A stretch of 34,466 bases of DNA from assembly GCA_944332025.1 (NCBI GenBank), contig CALVJB010000011.1, positions 1 to 34,466 on the forward strand. The letters run 5' to 3'. The position numbers and the translations under genes were made by a program. Under the pieces are notes generated by a model. It ran no database searches. It was not told the origin of the DNA and saw only the letters and a program-made list of their open reading frames with translations. Positions 5,532 through 26,034 of this stretch are shown here, piece by piece; positions within the stretch are counted from its first letter, which is position 1; the number at the start of each line of letters is the position of its first letter. This stretch comes from an uncultured Bacilli bacterium. GTDB taxonomy: Bacteria > Bacillota_I > Bacilli_A > RF39 > UBA660.

Positions 5532-5560
5532 TTGTTATATAGATTACAGTATGATACTAT
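5532..5560 (+). promoter_or_regulatory. Promoter for small hydrophobic peptide RNA, locus A
   Basis: TTGTTA (5532-5537), 17 bases, TACTAT (5555-5560) with TG upstream of the -10. The predicted RNA starts near 5567 with the conserved block GAACATTTAATGGTTGGGTG (5569-5588). Confidence 0.65.
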
Positions 5561-5622
5561 ATATATGAGAACATTTAATGGTTGGGTGTTATCTCTAAGT
5601 ATTTATATTTGGAGGTGATACT

Positions 5623-5715
5623 ATGAGTAAAAAAGACTTTTTAATTTCAACATTACTATTTATAATAATTTTACTTATTGTATTACTTTTTGTTGTTATC
5701 ATTATATTAATATAG
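5623..5715 (+). CDS. 30-residue hydrophobic peptide (candidate type I toxin), locus A
   Basis: ATG at 5623 preceded by a strong RBS (GGAGGTGA), stop TAG at 5713. The 30-residue product starts MSKKDFLIS and is otherwise almost only Leu, Ile, Val and Phe, enough for one membrane helix. It lies on the strand opposite to its neighbours, has its own promoter and terminator, and faces a convergent promoter whose RNA would overlap its 3' end. This layout matches Firmicute type I toxin genes such as txpA, bsrG and fst, where a membrane-damaging peptide is held off by an antisense RNA. A related locus lies at 12126-12454. The peptide itself is not one I recognise by sequence. Confidence 0.65.
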   Translation: MSKKDFLISTLLFIIILLIVLLFVVIIILI

Positions 5716-5721
5716 AATTAT

Positions 5722-5767
5722 AAAACAAAAAGAAAGCACTTAACTAAACAGCAGTTTAATTAGGTGC
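5722..5767 (-). terminator. Terminator of the antisense RNA, locus A
   Basis: Arms 5736-5749 and 5754-5767 pair over 14 positions with a 4-nt loop, including one wobble and one mismatch. On the minus strand they are followed by TTTCTTTTTGTTTT. Confidence 0.6.
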
Positions 5768-5845
5768 ATAACCCTTACAGGAGAAGCACTTAACACATGT
5801 GACGTTAAATGTTCTCTTTTTTTAGTATATGTAAATTTCTTTTAC
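5726..5845 (-). ncRNA. Predicted antisense RNA (antitoxin candidate), locus A
   Basis: Predicted from a convergent promoter at 5852-5880 and a terminator at 5736-5767, giving an RNA of about 120 nt that is fully complementary to the 3' part of the peptide mRNA. Its 5' end would form a hairpin (ATATGTAAA/TTTACATAT), and it then carries GAGAACATTTAA, the same block found at the 5' end of the sense RNA. So both the sense 5' end and the antisense RNA can pair with the sense 3' region. Ends are estimates. Confidence 0.5.
5781..5823 (+). terminator. Terminator of the peptide mRNA, locus A
   Basis: GAGAAGCACTTAAC (5781-5794) pairs with GTTAAATGTTCTC (5804-5816) with one bulge and one mismatch, followed by seven T. 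The right arm is also complementary to the 5' end of the mRNA (GAGAACATTTAA), so a long-range 5'-3' fold could compete with the terminator. Confidence 0.65.
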
Positions 5846-5851
5846 ATATTA

Positions 5852-5880
5852 ATAATAGCATAAATGGCACGTTTACGCAA
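5852..5880 (-). promoter_or_regulatory. Antisense promoter, locus A
   Basis: Minus strand TTGCGT (5875-5880), 17 bases, TATTAT (5852-5857) with TG before the -10. The same element recurs at 6096-6124 and, diverged, at 12426-12454. Confidence 0.6.
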
Positions 5881-5971
5881 GTATCTAACTTATAACTTTA
5901 TAATTTTAAAACATTAAAACAACTTCCTCTTCTCCTAATTAGTCTTGCCTTACTAATACTTGCAATTAAAA

Positions 5972-6089
5972 TATAAATAGCAACACTCTAATCAACGTTT
6001 GAGGAGTGTCTGCAATCCAAAAACTTATGGAGGAGACATTCGCTTGCAAATCAAATGTTCCTCTTTTATTAATATGTAAATTTTTTTAC
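5972..6089 (-). ncRNA. Decayed copy of the locus: orphan antisense RNA
   Basis: The block 6071-6133 repeats 5826-5889 almost base for base: the 5' hairpin, promoter and flank. Its minus-strand RNA would carry GAGGAACATTTGAT and end at a hairpin with arms 5983-5988 and 6004-6009 plus inner pairs. The matching plus-strand terminator arms remain near 6030-6066. No peptide gene with a start codon is left. The frame ending at 5976 still encodes a hydrophobic stretch (LPLLLISLALLILAIKI) with no ATG, GTG or TTG start, which suggests a dead toxin. Confidence 0.45.
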
Positions 6090-6095
6090 ATATTA

Positions 6096-6124
6096 ATAAT
6101 ATCATAAATGTTATATCTACACAA
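6096..6124 (-). promoter_or_regulatory. Antisense promoter of the decayed copy
   Basis: Minus strand TTGTGT (6119-6124), 17 bases, TATTAT (6096-6101). Spacing and the TG-A preceding the -10 are conserved relative to 5852-5880 although the spacer sequence differs. Confidence 0.55.
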
Positions 6125-6128
6125 GTAT

Positions 6129-7232
6129 CTAACATGTACTTTGTTTTTTAACTTTAACATGTTTATTAGTATTATAATGAAAAACATTCTCTTCATTATC
6201 TATATAGGAAGGTATTCCTCTTTTAGCAAGTGAACTTTGTAATAATTTTAAATCTACTATTTCAGAAACAAATTCTTGATTATCAATTAAGCAAGCAAAA
6301 GAACTATTAGTTAAAGCTCTTTCATAAACATCTTTTCCATAACTAGATATTAATTTTTCTTTCTTAAGTTCTATACTACCTATACCAAATTCTGCAATTA
6401 AATTATTATGCTTAGATAAATCATCTGCAATAGTTGTAGTTTTTTCTTCTATATCTTTTAAAAATTTAATATATTCTTGTTCTTGTTTTTCTATTCTGCT
6501 ACCTATAGTATCTAAAAATCCTTTCTCTTCACAAATTCTTATTAAATCTTTAGCAGTTAAATAATGACCACTAGATAGTAGAATTAGACTACCCCCATTT
6601 GCATTAGCATATCCCTTATCATTAAAATCTGTACTCCAATATGAAAAGATTTTATTAGAATTATTTTCCCATATCTTTTCTCCATCGTATTTAGAAAATT
6701 CCTTAAATTTACCATCAGTACCAAGATAGCTAACTGTATTACCATATCCAAGGCGACACATTTTAGATAAAGGATGCTCTCCTTTACTAAAATCACTAAC
6801 ACTTAAGAAACCATTAAATCTAACATATTCACCTTTCTCTTCATCTAAAAATGTTTCTTTATTAAAGTCAAAATATCTAAAATTTCTATCTATCCACGAA
6901 ACTTTGGAATCCTTACCAACCATAGCATAACCATATTCATTAAAGTCTGCGGCAATATCATATCTATATGGTAATAATTCATTATCTTCTTCTCTTACAT
7001 AAGCATATTCTTTATTAGCAGTTTGTACTACTTTAAAACCATTAACAAAGTCTCTACTATCATCAATAATATCAAAAGATTTTTCTGGTCTAGTCCATCT
7101 TGGTAATGCTATAGGAACATAAATTCCCTCATTAGTTCTTTCATTCAAGGTATAACCAAACTTTCTTATGTTTTTTTCAATAAACACATCATTAGCTTTA
7201 ATACTAACTATTTTCTTAGGCAAATTCTCCAT
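6129..7232 (-). CDS. WG-repeat-like protein of unknown function
   Basis: 367 residues from the ATG at 7230-7232, chosen because GAAGGAA precedes it; a longer start at 7250 has no RBS. The first two thirds contain about three beta-rich units of the WG-repeat kind, for example VNGFKVVQTANKEYAYVREE, then FNEYGYAMVGKDSKVSWIDR, then a unit with SFDFNDKGYANANG-like strands. A Glu/Lys-rich helical segment follows (about 245-290, coiled-coil-like) and then a helical tail. No signal peptide or membrane segment is seen, so it is probably cytoplasmic. WG-repeat proteins are common in gut Firmicutes with no settled role. It stands 29 bases after priA and may be co-transcribed. Confidence 0.7.
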   Translation of the reverse strand: MENLPKKIVSIKANDVFIEKNIRKFGYTLNERTNEGIYVPIALPRWTRPEKSFDIIDDSRDFVNGFKVVQTANKEYAYVREEDNELLPYRYDIAADFNEYGYAMVGKDSKVSWIDRNFRYFDFNKETFLDEEKGEYVRFNGFLSVSDFSKGEHPLSKMCRLGYGNTVSYLGTDGKFKEFSKYDGEKIWENNSNKIFSYWSTDFNDKGYANANGGSLILLSSGHYLTAKDLIRICEEKGFLDTIGSRIEKQEQEYIKFLKDIEEKTTTIADDLSKHNNLIAEFGIGSIELKKEKLISSYGKDVYERALTNSSFACLIDNQEFVSEIVDLKLLQSSLAKRGIPSYIDNEENVFHYNTNKHVKVKKQSTC

Positions 7233-12078: not shown

Positions 12079-12125
12079 TATGTTAAATATTACGAAATTT
12101 AGTTACTAATTTATTACATTTTCTC

Positions 12126-12155
12126 TTGCTATATAGAAAATTAATTTGATACTAT
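12126..12155 (+). promoter_or_regulatory. Promoter for small hydrophobic peptide RNA, locus B
   Basis: TTGCTA (12126-12131), 18 bases, TACTAT (12150-12155) with TG upstream of the -10. The RNA would begin just before GAACATTTAATAGTTGAGTG (12165-12184), which matches the locus A 5' block at 18 of 20 positions. Confidence 0.6.
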
Positions 12156-12211
12156 ATTTACAAGGAACATTTAATAGTTGAGTGAATACCAAACTCTATA
12201 AATAGAGGGAG

Positions 12212-12304
12212 GTGATATTAATAAACAAGAAAGATTTTTTAATTTTTTCTCTAGTAATGATTATCTTCCTTTTACTATTCTTACTATTTATAGTATTAAT
12301 ATAA
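12212..12304 (+). CDS. Hydrophobic peptide of about 27-30 residues, locus B (start codon unclear)
   Basis: A second copy of the locus A peptide gene: NKKDFLIF followed by Leu/Ile/Phe/Val only, stop TAA at 12302-12304. The codon aligned with the locus A ATG is ATA (12221-12223), not a normal start. The only standard in-frame start is a GTG at 12212-12214 inside the GGGAGGTGATA ribosome-binding sequence, which leaves almost no RBS spacing. The gene is therefore either inactivated, started at a non-canonical ATA, or translated weakly from GTG. The surrounding promoter, antisense promoter and terminators are all kept. Confidence 0.5.
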   Translation: MILINKKDFLIFSLVMIIFLLLFLLFIVLI

Positions 12305-12311
12305 AGGAAAT

Positions 12312-12339
12312 CCACCTAACTCAACAATGATTTAGGTGG
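12312..12339 (-). terminator. Terminator of the antisense RNA, locus B
   Basis: CCACCTAA (12312-12319) and TTAGGTGG (12332-12339), perfect 8-bp stem with 12-nt loop. The minus strand continues ATTTCCTTTATATT, a modest U-rich tract. It occupies the same place as the 5736-5767 hairpin of locus A. Confidence 0.5.
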
Positions 12340-12358
12340 TACTAACTTTTATTAAAGT

Positions 12359-12397
12359 AACACTCAACATGCGAATATTAAGTGTTCCTCATTTTTT
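12359..12397 (+). terminator. Terminator of the peptide mRNA, locus B
   Basis: AACACT (12359-12364) pairs with AGTGTT (12381-12386), with further inner pairs, and six T follow at 12392-12397. CACTCAAC at 12361-12368 is the exact complement of GTTGAGTG near the mRNA 5' end. Confidence 0.55.
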
Positions 12398-12425
12398 ATT
12401 TTATGCAAATTCCTTTTACATGTAC

Positions 12426-12454
12426 ATAGTATCATATTAATTAACTTTTGTCTA
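12426..12454 (-). promoter_or_regulatory. Antisense promoter, locus B
   Basis: Minus strand TAGACA (12449-12454), 17 bases, TACTAT (12426-12431) with TG before the -10. It overlaps the last codons of the HAD gene. Confidence 0.5.
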
Positions 12455-13151
12455 TACTAAATAACAAGTCACTAACACTATCTACTACTTTATTAGTAAT
12501 AGTATTTAACTCATCACAAGAATTATTAACTCTATAGCCATTATAATCTCTAACCATATCTATATCATTAATACCATCACCAATAGTAAAGACATTATCC
12601 TTTACTATTTTTTCTCTTACTAATATCTTCTCTATCATTGAAGACTTGCTAGCATTAACAGAAACAATCTCTACTAAATAATGATTATCTTCTTTTTCAT
12701 AATAACATTTAATATTAGTGTATCTCTGCTCTATATATTTTTTAACATCAAGAGCATTATCATAACTATATAGTTTTAACATGATTTTAACAACATTAGA
12801 AGTATCTGTTACTTTCTTTTTAAAAACATCAATTAAAACTACATCATATATATCTTTATTATTATTTGCATATTCTAAAACACTACCAACTAACTCTTTA
12901 TCTAAAGTAAATACATTAAGAATTTCTAATTTTTTAGATAATAGTAAGGATCCATGATTTAAAATCAAATAATCATAAGGTATTTTATATTTATCTATCA
13001 TTATTTTTAAATCAACATAACTTCTACCTGTTGCAAGTACAAAGAGATTACCTAAAGTTCTAAATTCATTTACTTTATCTATATTTTTCTTTATATCTAT
13101 ATCATTTTGATAAAATGTTCCATCATAATCACTTATTAATATCTTCTTCAT
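12441..13151 (-). CDS. Cof-type HAD hydrolase
   Basis: 236 residues. Motif I SDYDGTFY (7-14) carries the nucleophile and acid Asp pair, LATGRS (about 39-44) is motif II, a C2 cap follows (about 80-175), and GDGINDIDM (about 192-200) is motif IV. This is the Cof/YidA group, which dephosphorylates sugar phosphates or flavin and PLP-type cofactors; the substrate cannot be assigned. Length is a little short for the group (about 260-280). Its first codons lie inside one copy of a 37-bp direct repeat flanking yhcG, so its present upstream region derives from the 3' end of an ASCH-type gene. Confidence 0.85.
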   Translation of the reverse strand: MKKILISDYDGTFYQNDIDIKKNIDKVNEFRTLGNLFVLATGRSYVDLKIMIDKYKIPYDYLILNHGSLLLSKKLEILNVFTLDKELVGSVLEYANNNKDIYDVVLIDVFKKKVTDTSNVVKIMLKLYSYDNALDVKKYIEQRYTNIKCYYEKEDNHYLVEIVSVNASKSSMIEKILVREKIVKDNVFTIGDGINDIDMVRDYNGYRVNNSCDELNTITNKVVDSVSDLLFSIDKS

Positions 13152-13177
13152 AATTCCAAATACCTAACTTCCCTTTA
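13141..13177. repeat. 37-bp direct repeat, copy 1 (left of yhcG)
   Basis: Matches 14221-14257 at 36 of 37 positions, including 30 identical bases in a row, exactly 1080 bp apart. On the minus strand it contains the HAD gene start (ATGAAGAAG) and supplies the last bases of the yhcG stop. Confidence 0.9.
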
Positions 13178-14200
13178 ATCTGATTCAACTTCTAATCTTT
13201 TTTCAATATCTTCAATACTAGGTAAAGTATTTTCTAAAAATTCAGGTATCTCTGATAAAATTTTATATTCACTTACTCCAATAGGCTTATTTATATCTTT
13301 TAGTGCTAATTCAGCTGTAACTCTTTTCTTATCTTTACAAAGTAATATTCCAAATGTTGGATTATCACTGTCTGTTTTAATATATTTATCAACAGCACTT
13401 AAATAGAAATTTAATTTACCTGCATACTCAGGCTTAAATTCAGTTGTTTTTAATTCAATTACAACGTAACATCTAACTTTTAAGTTATAGAATAGTAAAT
13501 CAATATAATAATCTTCATTATCTATCTCTAAATGATATTGCCTTCCTATAAATGCAAAACCATTTCCCAATTCCAATAACAATTTTGTTATATTCCTTGT
13601 TAATTCTTGTTCAATATCTAATTCTTTTAAATCTTTATTATTACTAGTTGTTATAAAATCAAAAATATATGGGTCTTTTAATAATTCCTTTATTTGTTCA
13701 TTATTAGGAGATTTTAATGTTGTATCAAAATTAGTAATTTTATTTTCTAATAATGCCTGTCTTTCATACAATTTACTAGCAATTTGATGTATTATTACAG
13801 GTCTTGCCCAACCATTTTGAACAGACTCTTTAATATACCATTTCCTAACATTTTTATCTTTTACTCGATCCATTATAGTTGTTATAGATGACCAAGGTAA
13901 TTTTGCAACATCATGTTGCAAAAATTCATCATTATCAAACTCCGTTGCAAATTTCTTCATATATCTTAAATTTCTTGCAGACATCCCTTTTATTGTAGGA
14001 AATTCAATCTTCAAATCTTTTGCCAAAGTATCTATAAAAGATGAACCCCATTTATTATTTTCAACTAACTTTAAACCAATATTATAGTACATTAAAATTA
14101 AATTTTTATTTGCATTCGCTACTACTTTATTTCTTGTCGTTATTAGTGTTCTTTTAATATCATTTAATAATTCAAAATATTTATCATTATTTTCTATCAT
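13175..14200 (-). CDS. yhcG: YhcG-family PDDEXK nuclease (DUF1016)
   Basis: 341 residues. The N-terminal helical, winged-helix-like domain (1-150) has the family stretch MYYNIGLKLVEN...WGSSFIDTLAKDL and MSARNLRYMKKFA. The C-terminal nuclease domain (about 200-335) has YIDLLFYN (catalytic Asp) and CYVVIELKT (E-x-K), then the FKPEYAGKLNFYLSAVD helix. These residues look intact. YhcG proteins are mobile, patchily distributed genes linked to restriction and genome integrity, with no settled role. The gene begins within the ASCH stop (ATGA overlap, 14197-14200) and ends exactly in a copy of a 37-bp direct repeat. It therefore looks like an insertion into an older ASCH-HAD gene pair. Confidence 0.88.
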   Translation of the reverse strand: MIENNDKYFELLNDIKRTLITTRNKVVANANKNLILMYYNIGLKLVENNKWGSSFIDTLAKDLKIEFPTIKGMSARNLRYMKKFATEFDNDEFLQHDVAKLPWSSITTIMDRVKDKNVRKWYIKESVQNGWARPVIIHQIASKLYERQALLENKITNFDTTLKSPNNEQIKELLKDPYIFDFITTSNNKDLKELDIEQELTRNITKLLLELGNGFAFIGRQYHLEIDNEDYYIDLLFYNLKVRCYVVIELKTTEFKPEYAGKLNFYLSAVDKYIKTDSDNPTFGILLCKDKKRVTAELALKDINKPIGVSEYKILSEIPEFLENTLPSIEDIEKRLEVESD

Positions 14201-14616
14201 TTTTCCTCCATTATATATTTATCTTCTTCATAATTCCAAATACCTAACTTTCCTTTAGCTAATATAGGTCTATCCAATACTTGAATATCATCTAAAATCC
14301 AAGCATACCTACCAAGCTTATAATCACCAACTAAATATTCTAGCTTGTCTTTCTTTATCTTATCTAAAAACTCTTCATTCATATAAACACAATCTACTAA
14401 ATTACATTTACAAATGATATAACCAAAGTTTAAATTAACATCTTTTACAAGATTCATTAACTCTTTATTATTTTTCCATTCTTTAGGTATTTTTGTAGAA
14501 CTAGCATGAATATATAACTCTCCTCTATAATTAGTTTTAAAGCTCCTTGTCTCTATTTTCTTTTTACCAAGTTTTATCAAAGTTGCATATGGTTCTGTTA
14601 AACTAAGTACTTTCAC
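14197..14616 (-). CDS. ASCH-domain protein
   Basis: 139 residues from a GTG start at 14614-14616, chosen because GGAGG lies 8 bases upstream and the family begins MKVLSLxxPYA; an ATG 21 bases earlier (14637) lacks an RBS. Conserved parts are LSLTEPYATLIKLGKKKIETRS, YRGELYIHAS and LGRYAWILDDIQ. ASCH domains are PUA-like folds expected to bind RNA or modified nucleosides; some are nucleoside hydrolases. The start overlaps the DUF5680 stop by 4 bases (GTGA) and the end overlaps yhcG by 4 bases. The C-terminal sequence GKLGIWNYEED is the one duplicated downstream of yhcG. Confidence 0.82.
   Translation of the reverse strand: MKVLSLTEPYATLIKLGKKKIETRSFKTNYRGELYIHASSTKIPKEWKNNKELMNLVKDVNLNFGYIICKCNLVDCVYMNEEFLDKIKKDKLEYLVGDYKLGRYAWILDDIQVLDRPILAKGKLGIWNYEEDKYIMEEK
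14221..14257. repeat. 37-bp direct repeat, copy 2 (right of yhcG)
   Basis: Codes for the C-terminal part of the ASCH protein (KGKLGIWNYEED). It is the probable original copy; see 13141-13177. Confidence 0.9.
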
Positions 14617-24879: not shown

Positions 24880-24907
24880 AGGTCTATTAATTTATAGAAA
24901 AGTGTGA

Positions 24908-24913
24908 TACAAT
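24908..24913 (+). promoter_or_regulatory. Extended -10 of a plus-strand (antisense) promoter, locus C
   Basis: GTGTGATACAAT: extended -10 with weak -35. The RNA would begin near 24920, contain hairpins TGAAGA/TCTTCA and CATCTATT/AATAGATG (24953-24970), and run toward the peptide gene on the other strand. Confidence 0.4.
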
Positions 24914-24975
24914 ACATATATGAAGAGATTCTTCATAAAATAAAAATGAATACATCTATTAGAATAGATGCTTTC

Positions 24976-25029
24976 AAAAAAATGTGTTTTTTTAGATAAC
25001 ATCTAATTCCAAAAGAAATTAGATGTTAT
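24976..25029 (-). terminator. Double hairpin downstream of peptide C
   Basis: A perfect 13-bp stem (24996-25008 with 25017-25029, 8-nt loop) begins just after the peptide stop. It is followed by an A7-TGTG-T7 stretch (24976-24993) that forms a second stem-loop on the minus strand ending in U. Together they look like the end of the peptide mRNA. Confidence 0.55.
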
Positions 25030-25031
25030 TA

Positions 25032-25109
25032 TTATCTAAAGATTAAGGTGATAATAATGAATAACAAGATAATGATAATTATGAAATATGATTTTTCTCG
25101 TTTGTTCAT
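25032..25109 (-). CDS. 25-residue hydrophobic peptide (candidate type I toxin), locus C
   Basis: ATG at 25107-25109 with RBS AAAGGAG 8 bases upstream, stop TAA at 25032-25034. The product starts MNKREKSYF, continues with an Ile/Leu/Phe-only stretch and ends in Arg: one membrane helix with charged ends. The RBS touches a 26-bp perfect palindrome upstream and a terminator hairpin follows directly. A plus-strand promoter faces it. This is the same layout as loci A and B, with different sequence. The opposite strand also has a 32-codon ORF (25057-25155) with an AAGGTGAT site, less convincing because of its mixed composition. Confidence 0.6.
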   Translation of the reverse strand: MNKREKSYFIIIIILLFIIITLIFR

Positions 25110-25121
25110 ATATCTTGCTCC

Positions 25122-25147
25122 TTTCTATAATTTTAAAATTATAGAAA
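25122..25147. repeat. 26-bp perfect palindrome at the RBS of peptide C
   Basis: Perfect inverted repeat centred between 25134 and 25135, arms TTTCTATAATTTT. Its left end overlaps the AAAGGAG of the peptide gene (25118-25124), so in the mRNA it would hold the ribosome site next to a 13-bp hairpin; it could equally be a protein operator. Confidence 0.75.
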
Positions 25148-25192
25148 AGGCTTAGTTTTTCCAAATAAATGTATTCGTATTTAGTGTAACAT

Positions 25193-25222
25193 AAAACTCG
25201 TATCTTTCATAGTACGAGTTTT
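25193..25222. terminator. Terminator of the nine-gene operon ending in araC-type gene
   Basis: AAAACTCGTA (25193-25202) pairs perfectly with TACGAGTTTT (25213-25222), 10-nt loop. Confidence 0.7.
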
Positions 25223-25239
25223 CGTAAATTACTTCTTTG

Positions 25240-26034
25240 TTAATCTTCTATTGGTATTAAAAACTCTGTTATTCCATCGTGATAATATTCAAGTTCTGGT
25301 AATGGTCTAATATTATATTGCAAATTCAAAAACATTGTCTTATAAAACTTTTGACTAACTCTTCTAATATCTTCTGCTTCCTGTGAATTTATTATAAAGA
25401 CAATCCATTTACTTTTAGGAATAACATATTTAGATAAGCCTGTTAATTTTTCTTTATATAAACACCAATATTCAAATCTATCACTTTTATATCTATCTTC
25501 ATAAGTAACCATACCATAATCTGGATACTTACTAAATTTATTTATACACTCATCAAAAAATCTTGGAGCATCTTCTTTAATAGTATCATTAGTAGTCTTA
25601 ACACCTACTCCATATAAAATAAATTCATCTAAAGAAATAATGTTATATATTAAATCACTACTATCAGTTATCTCTTCTTTAAAGACAATTCTAGGAAAAG
25701 TCTTAATACCAGTCTTTAATTCTTTCGCTTTACTAGGTTTAACTCCATAAAACTTATAAAAAGCCCTTGAAAAAGATGTTGGATTATCATAATGATATTT
25801 AATTGCAACATCTATTATTTTCTCATTCTTTACAGTTAAATCATAAAAAGATAATGTTAATCTTCTTTTTCTAATATACTCTGCTATTGTATTATTACAA
25901 AGTAAGCTGAAAAGTTTTTTAGCAGTATAAACATTAACTCCTAGAATTCTAGCGATTTTTTCATAGTCTATATCATTTTCTAGGTTATCTTCTATATAAT
26001 CTATTACTTTATTTAATTCATGATAAATATTCAT
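25240..26034 (-). CDS. AraC-family regulator with GyrI-like effector domain (Rob type)
   Basis: 264 residues. Two helix-turn-helix motifs of the AraC kind lie at the N-terminus (about 8-105): DYEKIARILGVNVYTAKKLF and the second ending NPTSFSRAFYKFYGVKPSK. The C-terminal half (about 115-262) is a GyrI-like small-molecule-binding domain, recognisable by DEFILYGVGVKTT and WCLYKEKL... and ending PLPELEYYHDGITEFLIPI. This is the architecture of Rob and multidrug or stress sensors. It lies 2 bases after the superoxide reductase gene, so it may control oxidative or toxic stress responses; that role is inferred from position. Confidence 0.88.
   Translation of the reverse strand: MNIYHELNKVIDYIEDNLENDIDYEKIARILGVNVYTAKKLFSLLCNNTIAEYIRKRRLTLSFYDLTVKNEKIIDVAIKYHYDNPTSFSRAFYKFYGVKPSKAKELKTGIKTFPRIVFKEEITDSSDLIYNIISLDEFILYGVGVKTTNDTIKEDAPRFFDECINKFSKYPDYGMVTYEDRYKSDRFEYWCLYKEKLTGLSKYVIPKSKWIVFIINSQEAEDIRRVSQKFYKTMFLNLQYNIRPLPELEYYHDGITEFLIPIED

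Follow-up and report, generated by a model that had tools for sequence, protein, structure and literature searches.

Is the short hydrophobic reading frame at locus A, in the 34,466-nt stretch of DNA from an uncultured Bacilli bacterium that was analysed here (the window), one half of a type I toxin-antitoxin module, as an earlier note on this DNA proposed, and if so, does the module belong to a family already described? Because a conserved frame, an antisense promoter, covarying RNA pairing and a multi-copy, unannotated family fit the predictions of a type I system, we consider it very probable that locus A is a type I toxin-antitoxin-like module on the chromosome, that it belongs to a new family present in many copies, and that it combines a double lock on its mRNA, made by a Shine-Dalgarno hairpin and 5'-3' closure, with an antisense RNA that would act at the mRNA 3' end. 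The analysis shows the module's anatomy, its covarying pairing, selection on its peptide, a conserved promoter and its distribution; that it is transcribed, that its peptide is toxic, that RNase III takes part, how translation is released and what the module does for the cell are what we infer.

Two convergent units at locus A

The sense unit lies on the plus strand. Its predicted promoter, TTGTTA-17-TACTAT with an extended -10 TG (5532..5560; -35 at 5532-5537, -10 at 5555-5560), has comparable counterparts at other copies and is followed by the mRNA leader (5567..5594, from folding and covariation), which reads GAGAACATTTAA from 5567. A predicted hairpin (5586..5619) would sequester the Shine-Dalgarno (SD) sequence GGAGG (5611-5615) of the putative toxin gene, a 30-aa hydrophobic ORF (5623..5715; MSKKDFLISTLLFIIILLIVLLFVVIIILI), and the unit ends in a terminator hairpin with a T run (5781..5823), which alignment (A1) and its compensatory changes identify as both leader partner and antisense target. 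On the minus strand, a promoter with the sequence TTGCGT-17-TATTAT (5852..5880; -35 at 5880-5875, -10 at 5857-5852) is predicted to drive an RNA of ~120 nt with a 5' stem-loop, the putative antitoxin (about 5846 to 5727), which ends in its own terminator, seen in sequence and folding as a hairpin at 5767-5736 with a T run (5727..5767) and recurring at other copies. On direct reading, the sense promoter, strong SD, ORF and sense terminator, as well as the minus-strand promoter and separate minus-strand terminator, all lie where the earlier note had placed them. The block GAACATTTAA, which it had assigned to the 5' ends of both RNAs, is indeed common to the two (5569-5578 on the plus strand and again 5814-5805 on the minus strand), but the antisense copy sits ~30 nt inside, behind the 5' hairpin.

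A consensus promoter scan of the region returned 3 promoter-like sites where 6.3 were expected, which is not significant, so the case must rest on comparison. Across 186 distinct modules, the antisense promoter has the consensus TTGACA-17-TACTAT with an extended -10 and lies opposite the terminator; at locus A the -35 is weak (a 3/6 match), which counts against the toxin-antitoxin reading. Judged by sequence alone, the conserved convergent promoter and terminator define an antisense gene that overlaps the toxin mRNA. Its RNA is complementary throughout to the mRNA terminator region and covers the mRNA 3' end, beyond both the ORF and the SD. When folded, the predicted mRNA and antisense RNA of locus A are each far more stable than shuffles (z = -6.2 and -4.6, respectively), and the antisense 5' stem-loop was no better than shuffles in a cut that shortened the stem-loop itself, so no weight is placed on it.

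The peptides of the family are hydrophobic, 22-33 aa long, and fall into several groups (KKDF-type, KTF-type, short KKDF...IYR, MRK.EKFLC-type, MKKRVFVLKVLR and MNKREKSYF). Within subfamilies the in-frame pN/pS is 0.20-0.52, and both shifted frames give higher values in every group; by this measure the peptide is under purifying selection, and most units retain the frame, the SD and the stop. Loss of the frame among relatives would have spoken against the module as first proposed, and what the comparison finds is a short hydrophobic peptide gene under selection, as expected of a type I system.

The predicted mRNA fold and its antisense target

Two successive parts of the mRNA 5' end pair with the terminator: the first 10-13 nt with its last 10-13 nt, and the sequence that follows with its 5' arm; at locus A, GAGAACATTTAA pairs with the 3' arm and the leader stretch that follows it with the 5' arm. 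In a count anchored on the first four positions of the leader:terminator helix, which were themselves excluded from scoring, 92.2% of positions 5-11 were paired across 84 distinct units, as opposed to 25-39% in slid-register controls and no more than 72% in any of 1000 permutations, and compensatory double changes occupied 199 cells, as opposed to at most 85 in controls; given that the sequences are related and non-independent, these figures constitute strong support and not exact probabilities. Leader:3' duplexes average -33.9 kcal/mol when leader and 3' end are cognate, -20.4 when they come from different subfamilies and -10.8 when the leader is shuffled, and the first 10 nt of the mRNA have a probability of 0.98 of pairing with the 3' end (0.22 in shuffles). 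The 5'-3' fold of the mRNA that the earlier note had raised is thus borne out as a covarying leader:terminator pairing in the family, and with it the conservation of RNA pairs on which that note had staked its reading.

In folds of 125 full-length mRNAs the SD is on average ~86% paired, mostly with the leader. Because no more than 34 of 101 leaders have a perfect 5-nt anti-SD upstream, as compared with 9 after scrambling, the hiding of the SD rests on folding and not on strict complementarity. The hidden SD, which is predicted, and the long-distance pairing, which covaries, would together make for a non-translatable primary transcript. When the 3' module is removed in silico, the SD stays paired, and since it is predicted to remain hidden in 3'-truncated mRNAs, the folds give no account of how translation is released, which also counts against the reading.

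For the antisense RNAs of this genome, predicted antisense:target energies are -71 kcal/mol with the cognate target, -41 within the same subfamily and -22 with others. Because cross-pairing is so much weaker than cognate pairing, these modelled energies suggest that the modules are probably specific. The recognition hairpin of the antisense RNA resembles the mRNA leader with a loop added.

Copies, decay and distribution

Searches by DNA similarity and with a covariance model built on the 3' module identify ~26 units in this genome (1.59 Mb, 95% complete), several of them in tandem pairs or clusters, and the same arrangement recurs hundreds of times in relatives. The two related loci that had been noticed alongside locus A are real, but they are part of a far larger, family-wide expansion. 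The window holds three units besides A. The first, A' (5900..6151, plus strand), is a decayed unit whose KTF-type toxin survives only as its end, with the antisense promoter and RNA intact on the minus strand; remnants occur at the same place in relatives. Locus B (12091..12440, plus strand) is a subfamily-1 unit in which, by comparison with relatives, the usual ATG start is ATA and an in-frame GTG lies upstream, and locus C (24880..25240, minus strand) is a divergent third unit with the peptide MNKREKSYFIIIIILLFIIITLIFR. The missing start codon of B and the missing intact toxin of A' were counted against the toxin-antitoxin reading. The orphan antisense RNA of A', whose gene adjoins the truncated toxin, is predicted to bind subfamily-2 relatives at -41 to -50 kcal/mol, and the toxins of that subfamily could be its targets in trans. 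Locus A itself lies between a sigma-factor gene and priA-side neighbours, a site at which most close relatives have the unit, others lack it and a few show it visibly decayed; from this pattern, the copy is one inherited in place with loss and not a recently mobile one.

Many copies, inverted-complementary 5' and 3' ends and some tandem clusters are also what one would see if the units were short, MITE-like, non-autonomous mobile elements, whose terminal inverted repeats would mimic 5'-3' pairing and whose small ORF would be incidental. We regard this as extremely improbable: conservation reaches past the repeats into promoters on both sides, the repeats covary between subfamilies instead of forming one sequence, the ORF has an SD and is under purifying selection, and units are retained at orthologous positions, where they decay in place.

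It is also unlikely that the antisense-controlled peptide serves a non-toxic role, as a membrane regulator, a pheromone or a secreted, bacteriocin-like peptide. Short hydrophobic peptides do act as membrane regulators, and several subfamilies here differ in charge; against this, we saw no signal or processing site in the peptides, the many redundant, decaying copies and the antisense gene kept at A' better match addiction-like modules, and double repression of an mRNA combined with a cis antisense RNA is a hallmark of toxins (PMC6733600).

The type I toxin-antitoxin-like family has a narrow range. With model R1, the module was detected in all 34 genomes of the same genus (relatives of Candidatus Onthousia; 1-27 copies each) and in 168 of 243 genomes and 108 of 148 genera across the family, which sits in what we take to be the GTDB order RF39. 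Outside the family, it was detected in 1 of 346 genomes sampled from the class, and no module was found among 295 genomes sampled from the phylum. Exact pattern matches in named records all come from Candidatus Onthousia or from MAGs labelled uncultured Bacilli, Tenericutes or bacterium. The sole outside unit (L195, in genome G441 of another family of the class) looks complete and reflects either horizontal transfer or a mis-binned contig. An origin from prophages or plasmids was considered and rejected: there was no phage match, the viral contigs searched contained no family member, and a related subfamily-2 peptide had no plasmid match.

Several features of the surroundings were recorded. 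The palindrome TTACGAAAATTCGTAA(C) occurs upstream of many toxin promoters in this genome (G000), at 24 sites as opposed to 1 in the reversed control; it was missed by a 60-nt upstream window, and the figure of 24 comes from a separate count. Sites include C2:22439, C9:24574 and C54:6214, and also C51:1075, C34:11876, C46:3457 and C77:536, and the palindrome likewise precedes several genes whose products look, by eye, to be of Bro/KilA-N/RhuM type, together with an XRE-like regulator. It is possible, from this placement, that TTACGAAAATTCGTAA is a shared operator. SOS control through it was rejected: the lexA promoter of the same genome has CGAACACTTGTTTA and CGAAGATTTGTTTG, so the palindrome is not a LexA box. 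A second, GTTCGmTTG-like element overlaps the -35 in 51 of 112 distinct upstream regions of related loci and in 1 of the shuffles. On contig C54, a group II intron match (L012, 2877-2950) lies next to a unit cluster. Elsewhere in the window, 38-bp direct repeats (13140-13177 and 14220-14257, 97% identical) flank a gene at 13175-14200 that matches PADLOC PDC-S02 (E 7e-129), possibly a recent insertion of a candidate defence nuclease.

Known systems and a proposed mechanism

Neither the peptide nor the RNA had been familiar when the locus was first noticed, and searches of Rfam, Pfam, NCBIfam, PHROGs and PADLOC gave no credible family match. Toxin profiles of the type I families in Pfam and NCBIfam produced nothing near a curated cut-off, and the antitoxin and sRNA covariance models of Rfam 15 produced no credible match; a weak hit to Betaproteobacteria_toxic_sRNA at A' (E 0.19) was taken as chance. 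Our literature search found no paper joining 'type I toxin-antitoxin' with RF39 or Mollicutes RF39. General anatomy and peptide size are nevertheless shared with described type I families, and the modules could in principle be a diverged branch of one of them (TxpA/BsrG, Fst/Ldr, Ibs, AapA or the C. difficile CD2517.1-like group), which we think very improbable given the want of a credible Pfam, NCBIfam or Rfam match and the confinement to a single taxonomic family. The kind of system is known; as judged by these searches, the family and its target topology appear new.

In txpA/RatA and bsrG/SR4 of Bacillus subtilis, convergent genes give an antisense RNA that overlaps the 3' end of the toxin mRNA, and the toxins are 38-59 aa long. 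Convergent RNAs with a 3'-end overlap are likewise found here; unlike those systems, ours has shorter peptides, with no similarity in the Pfam scan, and we know of no covarying 5'-3' leader:terminator lock in them. Comparison supports the type I architecture that the earlier note had likened to txpA/ratA, but the fold is nearer to aapA/IsoA and hok. The full-length hok mRNA is kept translationally inert by 5'-3' pairing, Sok binds its 5' leader, and the toxin is about 50 aa long. The inert, 5'-3' paired mRNA of hok/Sok (E. coli plasmid R1; discussed in PMC6733600) resembles the one proposed here, whereas Sok acts on the 5' leader and our antisense RNA on the 3' end, and there is no detectable relation between them.

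The closest mechanistic analogue, by its fold, is aapA/IsoA of Helicobacter pylori, where a 5'-3' interaction keeps the full-length mRNA inert and a truncated form is translated (PMC6733600). It shares with our family a ~30-aa toxin, an mRNA of ~225 nt, a long-distance 5'-3' lock, SD hairpins, a cis antisense RNA and several module-specific chromosomal copies (PMC6733600). The long-distance interaction recurs here. IsoA lies over the ORF and, in the truncated mRNA, blocks the SD region; this is not found here, and instead the antisense RNA covers the mRNA 3' end, its site is the leader's own binding site and the leader mimics the antisense RNA. There are 6 copies there and about 26 here, and no sequence relation was detected. 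C. difficile modules such as CD2517.1-RCd8 and CD0956.2-RCd10 also combine a convergent small membrane toxin with an antisense RNA, at >10 modules per genome, but their toxins are 34-53 aa long with a lysine-rich C terminus and many lie on prophages (PMC6563280), whereas the present family was not found in viral contigs. Type I systems have been reported in Proteobacteria, Firmicutes, Tenericutes and, in one case, a cyanobacterium (PMC12390103).

In the mechanism that we propose, the sense RNA would encode a small, membrane-inserting toxic peptide, and a local hairpin would hide the SD during transcription. After synthesis of the terminator, some 20 bp would form between it and the 5' leader, closing the mRNA so that ribosomes could not start on it. 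The convergent antisense RNA would pair perfectly with the mRNA 3' end, and the resulting duplex would most likely be directed to RNase III. Leader and antisense RNA share nearly the same recognition sequence and would therefore compete for one 3' site, and since the antisense RNA binds the leader's 3' partner, lock and antitoxin would be mutually exclusive. Toxin would be made only when the mRNA escapes both locks, e.g., once its 3' end has been trimmed or the short-lived antisense RNA has been lost; candidate roles include genome stabilisation and a response to stress or phage. We lean, if only slightly, toward the view that a mimic of the antitoxin is built into the toxin mRNA itself, the leader reproducing the antisense recognition hairpin without its loop and self-lock and antitoxin being alternative ligands of one 3' site, in ~26 module-specific copies per 1.6-Mb genome and in most of one uncultured gut Bacilli family.

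If true, this would bring to light, in an uncultured clade, a large type I family, apparently unannotated, whose copy density exceeds any of which we are aware. With its hundreds of natural variants carrying compensatory changes, one could test by comparison how toxin mRNAs fold back, how antitoxins discriminate among paralogues, and how modules arise and decay; it would also raise the question of why small, reduced gut genomes retain dozens of such modules.
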